Source: a virus
DNA: 39,186 nt
Virus record (IMG/VR): IMGVR_UViG_3300026077_000010
Span: 1 to 39,186 of that record
Direction: 5' to 3' (one strand)
Part shown: positions 34,368-38,433 of the stretch, in pieces
How the letters are laid out: every line of letters starts with the position of its first letter
How positions within the stretch are numbered: the stretch's first letter is position 1
Program-made: the position numbers and the translations under genes
The notes under the pieces: generated by a model
The model's database searches: none
Seen by the model: the letters and a program-made list of their open reading frames with translations, nothing else
Told to the model about the DNA's origin: nothing

Positions 34368-34514
34368 ATGAGCAAACGTTCATCGGACCAAGACAATTCA
34401 ATAGACCATGAAATCGATGACCTAGGATACAATATCAAAGGGGTCAGACGATCTAATAAAAAGAAGGTAACAAAATATAAGAAATATGAGAAGTGGGAAG
34501 AGGACAGTTATTAA
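34368..34514 (+). CDS. Small basic hypothetical protein (48 aa)
   Basis: ATG at 34368, TAA at 34512-34514. The first half is acidic, the second strongly basic (VRRSNKKKVTKYKKYEKW). AGGA at 34361-34364 lies before the ATG. Its 3' end carries a copy of the recurrent GGACAGTT/AAACTG element. A nucleic-acid-binding role is possible from the charge alone. Function unknown. Confidence 0.55.
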   Translation: MSKRSSDQDNSIDHEIDDLGYNIKGVRRSNKKKVTKYKKYEKWEEDSY

Positions 34515-34542
34515 ACTGACACACTCACCAACACACTGAGGT

Positions 34543-34581
34543 CCTGAGCATGTACAATGTGTATATGTTCAGGATTTTTTT
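34543..34581 (+). terminator. 14-bp hairpin with T7 directly before an ATG
   Basis: The arms 34543-34556 and 34560-34573 pair over 14 positions (two G-U pairs) with a 3-base loop, followed by A and seven T (34575-34581). This is a textbook rho-independent terminator, but the ATG of the next gene is the very next base. AGGA (34571-34574), the only ribosome-binding site, lies in the 3' arm, so the hairpin may also hide it. Confidence 0.75.
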
Positions 34582-34869: not shown

Positions 34870-34887
34870 AAAAAGTAAGCCGCCGTC

Positions 34888-34917
34888 GGACAGTTGAGAA
34901 ACTGTCCATTTTTTTGC
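34888..34917 (+). terminator. Rho-independent terminator
   Basis: GGACAGTT (34888-34895), loop GAGA, AACTGTCC (34900-34907), an 8-bp perfect stem, followed by A and seven T (34909-34915). It ends the transcript of the 95-residue gene. The stem is a member of the recurrent palindrome family, here improved into a true terminator. Confidence 0.85.
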
Positions 34918-34949
34918 CCATTTGCTCTGAAATCGTTTATATTAAGGAC
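34914..34949 (+). promoter_or_regulatory. Promoter with -10 TATATT close to the ATG
   Basis: TATATT (34938-34943) is followed by AAGGAC and then ATG at 34950. A weak -35, TTGCCC (34914-34919), lies 18 bases upstream in the T run of the terminator. With 6 bases between the -10 box and the ATG the transcript would be leaderless or nearly so. Confidence 0.5.
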
Positions 34950-35321: not shown

Positions 35322-35360
35322 ATTATATGCATAAAGCGCGGCGGCCTGAATTTTTGAAAC

Positions 35361-35413
35361 CAGTTGACAAAGTGTCCACTGTTTCACCCATTGGTTGTAA
35401 TCTTTGCTATATT
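35361..35413 (+). promoter_or_regulatory. Duplicated intergenic promoter block
   Basis: TTGACA at 35364-35369 sits in a copy of the recurrent palindrome, and TATATT at 35408-35413 is the likely -10 box, followed by AAG as in the block before 34950. The TTGACA is too far (38 bases) for a -35 box; no good -35 is seen at 17 bases. Transcription from here would give a leader of about 20 bases for the ATG at 35440. Confidence 0.45.
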
Positions 35414-35439: not shown

Positions 35440-35691
35440 ATGACAGCAACTGCAACCAAGGCACCACGTAAAACAGTACGTAAACCAAGGAAAGCAGCAG
35501 CACCAAAGGTCACCACACCAAAGAGACCTAGCAGTGCTAAACTCATCAGTCCATCACGCTACGTTGACGACGCAAAGCAGAGATGGGCAATTCATGAGTA
35601 CGAGGTCAACGCCCTATTCCAGGATATATCCAAAGGATACAAGGCAACCTCATCATATGTTAAAGAGTCCTATGTAAGGGCATTTAACTAG
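35440..35691 (+). CDS. Small protein with histone-like basic N-terminus (83 aa)
   Basis: The first 35 residues are rich in Lys, Arg, Ala, Pro and Thr (KAPRKTVRKPRKAAAPKV), like histone tails or DNA-binding tails. The rest is a helical domain (YVDDAKQRWAIHEYEVNALF). Likely to bind nucleic acid. It is the only gene between its promoter and the next terminator. The 3' end abuts a recurrent palindrome. Identity is unknown; similar Lys/Ala-rich tails exist in other cyanophage proteins. Confidence 0.65.
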   Translation: MTATATKAPRKTVRKPRKAAAPKVTTPKRPSSAKLISPSRYVDDAKQRWAIHEYEVNALFQDISKGYKATSSYVKESYVRAFN

Positions 35692-35714
35692 GACAGTTCA
35701 CAAACTGACCACTG

Positions 35715-35747
35715 ACCCCTTCACTGGGGTTTTTTCATGTGTATAAT
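35715..35747 (+). promoter_or_regulatory. Composite terminator-promoter
   Basis: ACCCC (35715-35719), loop TTCACT, GGGGT (35726-35730) and a T run (35730-35735) form a terminator. TATAAT lies at 35742-35747, and the loop bases TTCACT (35720-35725) are 16 bases upstream in the position of a -35 box. Transcription would start near 35754; the ATG is at 35769. Confidence 0.7.
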
Positions 35748-35768
35748 TATAGTAATCACATCACACAC

Positions 35769-36074
35769 ATGATTAGATTACAAATGGCAATGGGTAGAAA
35801 CATTCCCGATGCTGGCACCGTAGATGATGAGATGTTCGATGAGTTCATGCAATCAGACATCATGCCTCTTCTAGACTATGGCACAATCATCGACGGCATC
35901 GGATTCTGGAAAGGGGAGCAAGAACAAACCAAGATCCTCTATGTTGAAATTCCAGAGTCTGAGTTCAAGGCAATGTACAAAGTGTTCGTAATGATCGCGG
36001 CAGCATACAAAACAGCATTCAGACAGGATGCAGTCATGATCTCACAAATCCAAACCGAGATGGCACTAGTCTAG
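35769..36074 (+). CDS. Hypothetical protein (101 aa)
   Basis: The ATG at 35769 follows a promoter (-10 at 35742), so an in-frame GTG at 35739 is excluded. Met-rich (MIRLQMAMGRNIP), acidic, with a beta strand (TKILYVEIPESE) and a C-terminal helix (VFVMIAAAYKTAF) that is moderately hydrophobic but too charged around it to be a sure membrane segment. Function unknown. Confidence 0.65.
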   Translation: MIRLQMAMGRNIPDAGTVDDEMFDEFMQSDIMPLLDYGTIIDGIGFWKGEQEQTKILYVEIPESEFKAMYKVFVMIAAAYKTAFRQDAVMISQIQTEMALV

Positions 36075-36098
36075 ACAGTTCACAAACTGGTACACACA

Positions 36099-36121
36099 GC
36101 ACCCCACAGGGTGCTTTTTTT
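36099..36121 (+). terminator. Rho-independent terminator
   Basis: GCACCC (36099-36104), loop CACA, GGGTGC (36109-36114), then seven T (36115-36121). TATTAT and TATAAA boxes follow at 36124-36134, so a promoter for the next gene probably lies right after it; TATAAATG there also resembles a late motif. Confidence 0.8.
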
Positions 36122-36197
36122 GTTATTATATAAATGTGGGCAAGGATCTATGGTTGTCTGGATTCAGTTCAGAAATTACGTCCTTTAAGTCCTACAC

Positions 36198-36263
36198 GTG
36201 GTCATCTGCAGTAACTGATGGGCATCCCATAAGCAACTGCTATCATCTGCAGTAACTGACCAC
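36198..36263 (+). repeat. Direct repeat and hairpin in a long 5' leader
   Basis: TCATCTGCAGTAACTGA occurs twice (36202-36218 and 36243-36259, period 41). The whole is closed by GTGGTCA (36198-36204) pairing with TGACCAC (36257-36263), and contains a hairpin ATGGG-CAT-CCCAT (36218-36230). It sits about 25 bases before the ATG of the YubB-like gene and may be an RNA control element or a protein-binding site. Confidence 0.6.
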
Positions 36264-36287
36264 ACCCCAAACCTTATAGGAGAATCT

Positions 36288-36743
36288 ATGCCAAACTGGT
36301 GTCACAATCGAGTTTCATTCTACTCAGACAATGAGGAGCAACTGAAACAAGTTTATGAAATCTTTGACAATGATGAACCATTCCAGCATATAGTCCCTGC
36401 ACCTGATTGGAAGACCACACCCAACGAGAAAGGCGAATTGCCAATCAAAAGGGAACATAAGAACCCAGATGGTAAAGTAGTCTACACTACATACGATTTT
36501 CCAGATGGAAAGAATGACGACAGATGGTATTCCTGGAATGTTGCCAACTGGGGGACTAAGTGGGAAATTGACAAAGGATGCTGTGACCATCTGGATGAGA
36601 ATAGTTTTGAATGTGAGTTTGAAACTGCATGGTCACCAGCAGAGGGAATATTCTACGCATTACGAGAGAAATTCCCTGATGTTGATTGTACATGGTTTTA
36701 TGATGAACCAGGCATGATGGTTGCAGGTTACCTGGGACAATAA
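36288..36743 (+). CDS. DUF1281/YubB-like protein with ferredoxin-like fold (151 aa)
   Basis: It starts MPNWCHNRV and contains F-x-H-I-V-P-A-P near residue 31, then WYSWNVANWGTKW, TAWSPAEGIFYALREKFP and a final G-Y-L-G-Q. This is the signature of DUF1281 (YubB-like) proteins, found in plasmids and phages, with unknown role. A clear Shine-Dalgarno AGGAGA (36278-36283) precedes the ATG, unusual among the genes here. The leader is about 150 bases and holds a repeat/hairpin element, so the gene seems to be regulated on its own. Confidence 0.82.
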   Translation: MPNWCHNRVSFYSDNEEQLKQVYEIFDNDEPFQHIVPAPDWKTTPNEKGELPIKREHKNPDGKVVYTTYDFPDGKNDDRWYSWNVANWGTKWEIDKGCCDHLDENSFECEFETAWSPAEGIFYALREKFPDVDCTWFYDEPGMMVAGYLGQ

Positions 36744-36757
36744 GAAAAGTGTCTACC

Positions 36758-36791
36758 GACCCCTTCACAGGGGTCTTTTTATGTGTATAAT
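36758..36791 (+). promoter_or_regulatory. Composite terminator-promoter
   Basis: GACCCC (36758-36763), loop TTCACA, GGGGTC (36770-36775) and five T (36776-36780) form a terminator. TATAAT lies at 36786-36791. The loop TTCACA (36764-36769) differs from TTGACA at one base and is 16 bases from the -10 box. The leader to the ATG at 36818 is about 20 bases. Confidence 0.75.
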
Positions 36792-36817
36792 GAATACATA
36801 CAACACATAAGACGCCC

Positions 36818-36997
36818 ATGAGTTTTTTCAAGCACGTTCAACTTCACGAGTACGACATCACAGATGCAGGTATTACCTCTGCATGTTATGATGAACTAGT
36901 TGCCGACGGGAACAATTCAGACCCTAAGCAGTTAGAAATTCTAGCACGTGCTATGTGTGAAGAGTTCAAAGACTACATGCGTCCACTGTTCAGTTAA
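36818..36997 (+). CDS. Hypothetical small acidic protein (59 aa)
   Basis: ATG at 36818, TAA at 36995-36997, which lies inside a recurrent palindrome copy. The protein starts MSFFKHVQLHEYDITDAG and has a helix (LEILARAMCEEFKDYM) at the end. It stands alone between two composite terminator-promoters. Function unknown. Confidence 0.65.
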   Translation: MSFFKHVQLHEYDITDAGITSACYDELVADGNNSDPKQLEILARAMCEEFKDYMRPLFS

Positions 36998-37013
36998 CAA
37001 ACTGGCACACATT

Positions 37014-37049
37014 GACCCCACTTTCACTGGTGGGGTCTTATACTATAAG
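37014..37049 (+). promoter_or_regulatory. Composite terminator-promoter
   Basis: GACCCCAC (37014-37021), loop TTTCACTG, GTGGGGTC (37030-37037) form an 8-bp stem. TATACT (37039-37044) and TATAAG (37044-37049) follow at once. TTTCAC/TTCACT in the loop is 15-16 bases from TATAAG. The T run is weak (TT), so termination may be poor. The leader GTACAACACACA precedes the ATG at 37069. Confidence 0.65.
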
Positions 37050-37248: not shown

Positions 37249-37472
37249 TCAATCATTGGAACATCATCTCATTTCTTAATGATAAAGAGATGAGCGACAT
37301 TTGGGAGATCATGGACAAAGCGTTAGACCGTCATGGTTACGTGGGAATGTTTGAAGAGGGTGAATTGTCCATCCGTTTGTATGATGAGAATCTAAAACAG
37401 AATCTCGATGCAGACATGGAATATGACCCCGAACCATTTGAACATGATCACCCATTCTTTCACGTCACTTAG
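37245..37472 (+). CDS. Hypothetical small acidic protein (75 aa)
   Basis: Second gene of the transcript starting near 37055; its ATG overlaps the previous stop. Acidic (EYDPEPFEHDHPFFHVT at the end, rich in Asp, Glu, His, Phe). The stop lies inside a short hairpin GTCAC-TTAG-GTGAC. No family recognised. Confidence 0.65.
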   Translation: MINHWNIISFLNDKEMSDIWEIMDKALDRHGYVGMFEEGELSIRLYDENLKQNLDADMEYDPEPFEHDHPFFHVT

Positions 37473-37502
37473 GTGACAGTTCACAAAGTGGCACGAGGTT
37501 GG

Positions 37503-37530
37503 TTGATATCCTCCCTCGCTGCCCTATAAT
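37503..37530 (+). promoter_or_regulatory. Promoter (TTGATA/TATAAT)
   Basis: TTGATA (37503-37508), a 16-base spacer and TATAAT (37525-37530). The leader AGAGTACAACACACA resembles that before 37069. No clear terminator with a T run precedes it. It drives the gene at 37557. Confidence 0.7.
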
Positions 37531-37991: not shown

Positions 37992-38207
37992 ATGGCACAA
38001 AGAAATCAAAACACATGGGCAGTTCAACCAGCGGCGTGGGCAAAGTTCGATGAGCACGGCGCCGTGTATTGTGAAAGCATCGAGGCAGCTTATCAAGTCT
38101 GTAAGCAAATTGCAGGCGAAGGCGACCAGATGATTTTTAAAATGACCACAGGCAAACCAATCAAATGGGTGCGTGTGACAGGCAACGAACTGGTCCAATC
38201 TGCATAG
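37992..38207 (+). CDS. Hypothetical small protein (71 aa)
   Basis: Starts MAQRNQNTWAVQPAAWAKFD and continues with a strand-helix-strand pattern (VYCESIEAAYQVCKQIAGEG, MIFKMTTGKPIKWVRV). Soluble, no motif recognised. The promoter is not clear: TTGAAA (37938-37943) and a weak TTATTC (37961-37966) are the best match. The stop is followed by an ACCCCTTCACCC stretch, a degenerate form of the composite terminator. Confidence 0.62.
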   Translation: MAQRNQNTWAVQPAAWAKFDEHGAVYCESIEAAYQVCKQIAGEGDQMIFKMTTGKPIKWVRVTGNELVQSA

Positions 38208-38226
38208 ACCCCTTCACCCTATGCCC

Positions 38227-38238
38227 TATAATAAGTAC
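38227..38238 (+). promoter_or_regulatory. -10 box TATAAT giving a leaderless start
   Basis: TATAAT (38227-38232) is followed by AAGTAC and ATG at 38239. This is the same layout as TATATT-AAGGAC-ATG at 34938-34952. No -35 box at normal distance is seen; TTCACC (38213-38218) is too close. Confidence 0.55.
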
Positions 38239-38415
38239 ATGAACAAAACAAACGAACTCAAATCTTATTACGGCGGACGTGTTCTTGCTAATCAATCAGC
38301 AATGAAAGACCCCGCAGTCCTTGCAGCATTGGAAGCAATGCAGCAGAGAAACTGGGAAGACCTAAAGACGCCCAGTGGACACTATGGATACTGGAACATA
38401 AGCGACAGACATTAG
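38239..38415 (+). CDS. Hypothetical small protein (58 aa)
   Basis: The start at 38239 is preferred to an in-frame ATG at 38221 because the -10 box TATAAT lies between them. The peptide has a central helix (DPAVLAALEAMQQRNWEDL) and ends YGYWNISDRH. Its last codons are the left arm of the hairpin at 38398. Function unknown. Confidence 0.6.
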   Translation: MNKTNELKSYYGGRVLANQSAMKDPAVLAALEAMQQRNWEDLKTPSGHYGYWNISDRH

Positions 38416-38433
38416 TCGCTTATCCATTATAAT
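38398..38433 (+). promoter_or_regulatory. Hairpin over a stop codon followed by TATAAT
   Basis: ATAAGCGAC (38398-38406) pairs perfectly with GTCGCTTAT (38415-38423), and the stop TAG is within the loop. No T run follows, but TATAAT lies at 38428-38433, followed by AAGTACAT. The -35 box is not clear. The leader to the ATG at 38459 is about 20 bases. Confidence 0.55.

Follow-up and report, generated by a model that had tools for sequence, protein, structure and literature searches.

The short gaps between a series of small genes in this viral fragment are probably compact cyanomyovirus promoters of the sigma-70 type that accommodate the Rho-independent terminator of the gene before them. The fragment, a 39,186-base record referred to in full as the window, is assigned to a cyanomyovirus. 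It is closest at the DNA level to Synechococcus cyanomyoviruses, e.g. S-CAM4 and ACG-2014j/e, and its PHROGs matches are to T4-like tail-fibre and cyanophage genes (short tail fibre, phosphoribosylglycinamide formyltransferase and 2OG-Fe(II) oxygenase). The small genes, most of them without known function, lie in series at 34.5-38.7 kb and are separated by short gaps. What recurs most regularly in these gaps is a dyad of 24 bp that stands 30 nt ahead of the -10 element, which was missed in the preliminary description of this DNA.

The proposed architecture runs from the 24-bp dyad through an interval of 29-31 nt to TATAAT, with a YR start about 12 nt downstream of the first base of this box. 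At promoters that the upstream gene runs into, a GC-rich hairpin may cover the -35 position and its T run would fill the -35/-10 spacer, while the loop, at times together with inner stem pairs, would be kept -35-like (TTGACA, TTGACG, TTTACA or TTCACA). Such a -35-like loop would allow region 4 of sigma to contact it as DNA while the transcript folds into a terminator. The upstream message would thus end in the T run, and the downstream message would begin at the YR step. In the promoters that carry the dyad, the dyad probably recruits the polymerase and the -35 contributes. Termination, initiation, use of the loop as a -35 and binding of an activator at the dyad are what we infer from the layout of the sequence.

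Two gaps represent this arrangement in the window, and the elements of gap 1 and gap 2 are as follows.

35689..35712, + strand: 24-bp dyad of gap 1, TAGGACAGTTCACAAACTGACCAC, 14/20 consensus positions, sharing bases with the stop codon of the gene upstream
35714..35735, + strand: predicted intrinsic-terminator hairpin of gap 1, GACCCC[TTCACT]GGGGTT with T run, -10.1 kcal/mol
35742..35747, + strand: -10 of gap 1, TATAAT, spacer of 16 from TTCACT
36733..36756, + strand: degenerate dyad of gap 2, TGGGACAATAAGAAAAGTGTCTAC, 14/20, 30 nt before TATAAT 36786
36758..36780, + strand: predicted terminator of gap 2, GACCCC[TTCACA]GGGGTC with T run, -12.5 kcal/mol
36786..36791, + strand: -10 of gap 2, TATAAT, spacer of 16 from TTCACA

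Gap 1 reads GACCCC-TTCACT-GGGGTT-(T run)-CATGTG-TATAAT and gap 2 reads GACCCC-TTCACA-GGGGTC-(T run)-ATGTG-TATAAT. The exact succession of stem, TTCAC(A/T), stem, T run and TATAAT that had been described for these gaps is indeed present at 35714-35747 and 36758-36791, with a spacer of 16 in both. The hairpin proper occupies 35714-35731 in gap 1 and 36758-36775 in gap 2, and the T runs are T6 (35730-35735) and T5 (36776-36780), respectively. The candidate -35 elements are the loops TTCACT (35720-35725), with 4/6 matches to TTGACA, and TTCACA (36764-36769), with 5/6. The final base of the gap 1 dyad is exactly 30 nt before TATAAT 35742. From the start-site signature of the aligned promoters, transcription is predicted to start near 35754 (a T/A step; ATG at 35769) in gap 1 and near 36798 (a C/A step; ATG at 36818) in gap 2. 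We take 35714-35747 and 36758-36791 to be the window's examples of a terminator fitted into a sigma-70-type promoter. The candidate use of the loop as a -35 is best supported where the hexamer is a perfect TTGACA, in the hli promoter discussed below and in similar cases, and is weaker for TTCACT and TTCACA. The T4 late promoter, which has TATAAATA as its -10 and no -35, is not matched here, TATAAT being followed by TATAGT, GAATAC or AAAAGA.

The third gap, which had been grouped with these two, differs from them in layout, so that the composite sites number two rather than three.

36986..37009, + strand: dyad of gap 3, CTGTTCAGTTAACAAACTGGCACA, 15/20, 30 nt before TATACT 37039 and 35 nt before TATAAG 37044
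37014..37037, + strand: hairpin of gap 3, GACCCCAC-TTTCACTG-GTGGGGTC (loop TTTCACTG), without T run, -17.6 kcal/mol
37039..37044, + strand: preferred -10 of gap 3, TATACT, 10 nt after TTCACT

At 37014-37049 the strong hairpin and the TATAAG 15 nt after TTCACT are present as described, but the U run is missing and a better -10 lies at 10 nt. GC-rich stable hairpins occur in gaps 1, 2 and 3, and a U run adjoins the stem only in gaps 1 and 2; likewise, TATAAT is exact in gaps 1 and 2 and is TATACT in gap 3. TATACT 37039 is favoured since the dyad lies exactly 30 nt upstream and since it aligns with the promoter at 37525, whereas TATAAG lacks the nearly invariant final T of the -10. The loop cannot be the -35 of TATACT because the spacer is only 10 nt. 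The hairpin, absent from the list of the terminator scan, is probably a poor terminator, and we assign 37014-37049 as a putative dyad promoter with a hairpin in which the -35 is not in the loop. The proposed degenerate form, ACCCCTTCACCC, is located at 38208-38219, between the dyad at 38174-38197 and TATAAT 38227; its reading as a relic of the composite finds no support in spacing or folding, as TTCACC is 8 nt from TATAAT and the RNA hairpin amounts to only -1.9 kcal/mol.

Seven further promoters with the dyad are predicted in the window.

34500..34558, + strand: dyad 34500-34523 (16/20), -10 TACAAT 34553
34886..34943, + strand: dyad 34886-34909 (15/20), -10 TATATT 34938 (29 nt)
35356..35413, + strand: dyad 35356-35379 (13/20), -10 TATATT 35408 (29 nt)
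36071..36129, + strand: further composite, dyad 36071-36094 (16/20), terminator 36098-36115, -10 TATTAT 36124
37472..37530, + strand: dyad promoter without terminator, dyad 37472-37495 (18/20), TTGATA 37503-37508, TATAAT 37525-37530
38174..38232, + strand: dyad 38174-38197 (16/20) within the end of a gene, TATAAT 38227
38375..38433, + strand: dyad 38375-38398 (14/20), hairpin 38399-38422, TATAAT 38428

The dyad lies exactly 30 nt before the -10s at 34553, 35742, 36124, 36786, 37039, 37525, 38227 and 38428, and 29 nt before those at 34938 and 35408; all dyad scores in the window are 13-18/20. The loop of the terminator at 36098-36115 is formed around CACA and is not -35-like, while the hairpin at 38399-38422 has CAGACA at the -35 distance and no T run. 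The TTGACA-like centre of the dyad, AGTTGACAAAGTG, was considered as a -35 and rejected, there being no TATAAT 16-18 nt from it at 35364.

The same region holds other structures. At 34886-34916 the arms of the dyad pair perfectly around GAGA (GGACAGTT-GAGA-AACTGTCC) and a T run comes next, so that this box, which looks like a protein site, could also act as a terminator. A terminator-like hairpin of 41 nt at 34538-34578 encloses TACAAT 34553 of a dyad promoter, and here the promoter is nested in the terminator in a different manner. A direct repeat, TCATCTGCAGTAACTGA, is found at 36202-36218 and 36243-36259 in the gap of ~160 nt (36130-36287) that follows a dyad promoter; a small RNA or a leader is possible there.

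The dyad is not peculiar to the window. Blastn searches with gaps 1 and 3 were uninformative on conservation, the sequences being too short and too diverged, and the comparison was made with 17 cyanomyovirus genomes, T4 and T5 from public records, in which terminators were listed by rule. The consensus derived from the alignment is TGTGMCASTT-N4-AASTGKCACA, a palindrome of 24 bp. All 17 cyanomyovirus genomes contain the dyad, and together they hold 95 copies that end 29-32 nt ahead of a TATAAT, against ~1.6 expected (0.4 per position); the distance is exactly 30 nt in 52 of the 95. When the dyad promoters are aligned, the YR start step falls where a start is expected. The freshwater phage S-CRM01 also carries the dyad (11 matches, and 0 with a reversed-pattern control), and none was seen in T4, T5, pelagiphage HTVC008M, podovirus Syn5 or siphovirus PSS2. 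The two S positions vary independently of each other (left-right pairs: G-C 51, G-G 50, C-C 31, C-G 25; P = 0.62). The reading of the dyad as an RNA stem was rejected in the absence of compensatory covariation between the arms, and the symmetry is therefore one of DNA, as for a dimeric protein. The dyad, whose centre is near -53, probably binds a dimeric activator.

Of 198 dyad promoters, 40 have a hairpin between the dyad and the -10; shuffled sequences gave 3.7 +/- 1.8 and flanking stretches 1-4. The majority of the 40 hairpins are centred over the -35. The -35 of dyad promoters is generally weak; its mean match is 3.5/6 with a T-run hairpin and 3.1 without a hairpin, compared to 2.4 in shuffled sequences. 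The excess of -35-like loops over permuted offsets is modest in this set (5/24, P = 0.023).

The relation between the loop and the -10 was also counted over the terminators as a whole. Among 238 deduplicated cyanomyovirus terminators, a -10 is found at a spacer of 16-18 in 60, 50, 33, 9 and 10% of those whose loops match TTGACA at 6, 5, 4, 3 and 2 positions, respectively. A loop -35 of at least 5/6 is present in 15 of the 74 terminators with a -10; permuted -10 offsets gave a mean of 7.2 and never reached 15 in 1000 permutations. The register of the TTGACA-like hexamer varies from -1.5 to +1.5 nt about the loop centre, and the spacer is 16 or 17 nt in 17/20. The expectation that the pattern occurs more often than by chance held in the 17 genomes, in which 38 hairpin-flanked hexamers lie 15-18 nt before TATAAT, compared to 2-4 in simulations (five Markov-1 sets); 17 of the 38 match TTGACA at 4/6 or better, compared to 0-1 in the simulations. 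The earlier suggestion that the loop serves as a -35 thus stands in so far as -35-like loops are enriched at 16-18 nt in cyanomyoviruses, and is tempered by the 4/6 and 5/6 matches of the window's own loops. At least 5/6 matches were seen in 0/22 terminator loops of T4 and 0/23 of T5. An overlap of terminators and promoters in T5 was considered and rejected, since the sole T5 composite, in both terminal repeats, has the loop ATAATC.

Metagenomic viral sequences from IMG/VR extend these counts. When a free six-base loop was sought before TATAAT, the commonest loops were TTTACA (the top one), CGAAAG, TTCACA, TTGACA and TACACA; TTNACA and TACACA lie mostly 16-17 nt from TATAAT and tetraloop forms mostly 14-15 nt. 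A scan that did not require a -10 found one at 16-18 in 19/28 deduplicated cases with loops of at least 4/6, compared to 9/42 of the others (P = 1.6e-4). With the rest of the frame fixed, the loop TTGACA was found in 33 contigs and the scrambled TAGTCA in 0 among 2.9 million viral contigs. Composites with loops unlike a -35 (CGAAAG, TTCG, CACA) are numerous, so the loop need not contain a -35.

The nested form also occurs elsewhere. The pattern CCCTTGACAGGG-T5-TATAAT was found in 13 contigs among 84,980 bacterial and archaeal species; the named ones are mostly Firmicutes, and none of the 13 is labelled as a cyanobacterium. At seven loci in Oscillospiraceae-type Firmicutes chromosomes, AATTCCCC-TTGACA-GGGGAATT-T run-TATAAT is followed after 24-56 nt by a conserved ORF (MELLDKLNILADAAKYDAACTSSGLDR...), an independent bacterial case of the nesting. 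In P-SSM2 near 48617, in CCCTTGACAT-ATT-ATGTCAGGGG-TTT-TATAAT, a perfect TTGACA is located in the 5' arm of the hairpin, not in the loop, and the stem ends 3 nt before the -10.

The promoter of phage hli (high-light-inducible protein) serves as a natural experiment, of which the independent events are few. In S-CAM4 and S-MbCM7 it reads TTGACA-N17-TATACT-ATGTAAAGATT without a hairpin, and the upstream gene is on the opposite strand (divergent). In S-SM2, Syn1 and nine metagenomic contigs, the -35 (TTGACG in Syn1, TTGACA in the others), the 17-nt spacer, the -10 and the start region are kept, and a T-run hairpin surrounds the -35 with stems that vary (GGAACCC, AGAGGG, GCACCCC, TCCCCC, TTCCCC, GGACCC). 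S-SM2 and Syn1 have an annotated upstream gene in the same direction, and in the nine contigs a co-directional ORF, as called mechanically, ends 22-30 nt upstream of the tested point. The hairpin is found only with a co-directional upstream gene, which matches the prediction of a terminator fitted around an existing -35.

It may be asked whether the loop sequence matters at all. If a terminator and a dyad/-10 promoter merely share a short gap, the hairpin necessarily falls on the -35 position, and dyad and TATAAT would suffice whatever the loop. The weak -35 of dyad promoters in general, the several composite loops without a -35 match and the 4/6 of the window's TTCACT agree with such simple packing. 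We nevertheless regard it as rather unlikely, since the loop sequence predicts the presence of a -10 beyond permuted offsets, the -35 and -10 of hli are kept with or without the hairpin, and the -35 at T-run hairpins of dyad promoters matches at 4/6 or better in 53%, as opposed to 11% in shuffled spacers.

A preference of RNA structure could also produce TTNACA loops, as a UNAC-type tetraloop closed by a U-A pair and selected for stability, the likeness to a -35 being accidental. UNAC loops resemble GNRA loops. The form U-[UNAC]-A covers TTTACA, TTCACA, TTGACA and TTAACA, the first of which is also the most frequent loop in IMG/VR. On the other hand, the hexamer occurs in other registers ([CTTGA]CA, [TTG]ACA, [TTGACG], [ACTTGACA]) with the -35/-10 spacing kept, and such loops are absent in T4 and precede late-type TAAATA sequences in only 1 of 34 cyanomyovirus terminators, where UUCG, GNRA and other loops are found instead; this explanation is very unlikely. 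We also note that terminators adjoining late-type CTAAATA, at six loci among others, have GNRA loops (CGAAAG, CGCAAG) and not TTNACA, as is expected if late promoters need no -35. That the hairpin is no terminator but an inverted repeat acting as DNA, such as an operator or a cruciform that covers the -35, or else a signal for processing or for the 5' end, appears extremely improbable: 21 of the 40 hairpins between dyad and -10, including 37014-37037, are without a T run, yet the stems differ freely among orthologues, the hairpin tracks a co-directional upstream gene, and gaps 1 and 2 have canonical U runs. A promoter with a fitted terminator is thus the reading we prefer.

The elements of this promoter resemble several known systems. 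Early and middle promoters of T4-like cyanophages have been reported as sigma-70-like in Ma-LMM01 (PMC5780444). The -10 TATAAT, the -35-like hexamer at 16-18 nt and the YR start signature are common to sigma-70/SigA promoters (-35 TTGACA and -10 TATAAT, 16-18 nt apart), from which the present ones differ in that the -35 is in the loop of the upstream terminator and that many have the fixed-distance 24-bp dyad and a weak -35. Sullivan et al. predicted cyanomyovirus promoters (BPROM) and terminators (TransTermHP) separately (PMC3037559). The GC-rich stem, short loop, U run and position just after the stop codon are shared with Rho-independent terminators (PMC3037559), whereas here the loop is -35-like when a -10 follows and the U run also serves as the spacer of the promoter. 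Like T4 MotA middle promoters, the dyad promoters keep TATAAT and have an upstream protein site, putative here, that replaces or supports the -35. T4 middle promoters are activator-dependent and have a single MotA box near -30. No such box was found as the conserved upstream element, which is instead a 24-bp dyad centred about -53 and ending 29-32 nt before the -10. The outer bases TGTG...CACA are shared with CRP/NtcA-type sites. A CRP-type site is TGTGA-N6-TCACA; the dyad does not match it, having 14 bp rather than 6 between TGTGM and KCACA and a centre near -53.5. A search of the open-access literature returned no earlier account of the dyad or of terminator loops that carry a -35; the main Syn9 transcriptome and TSS paper was outside that search, for which reason novelty is provisional, and the dyad is apparently undescribed before.

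E. coli polymerase can remain on DNA after intrinsic termination and restart nearby, as observed in vitro with single molecules (PMC6978380). The composite element would put the sites of termination and restart at zero distance, which, by way of speculation, could help reinitiation. A regulatory nesting, in which a polymerase terminating in the T run is captured on the spacer of the next promoter and a dyad-binding factor decides between capture and release, is nonetheless distinctly unlikely. If it were true, consecutive small genes would be transcribed as separate short messages in relay and not as an operon.

Terminators and promoters are usually annotated apart, and here one element of ~35 bp would be both, with the hairpin loop as the -35. 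The constraints of RNA folding and of DNA recognition would be met by a single stretch of DNA, on which it could be tested whether polymerase is recycled at zero distance. For the cyanomyoviruses, which are abundant ocean viruses, the dyad provides a promoter signature that can be searched for in any genome and may lead to the factor that reads it.
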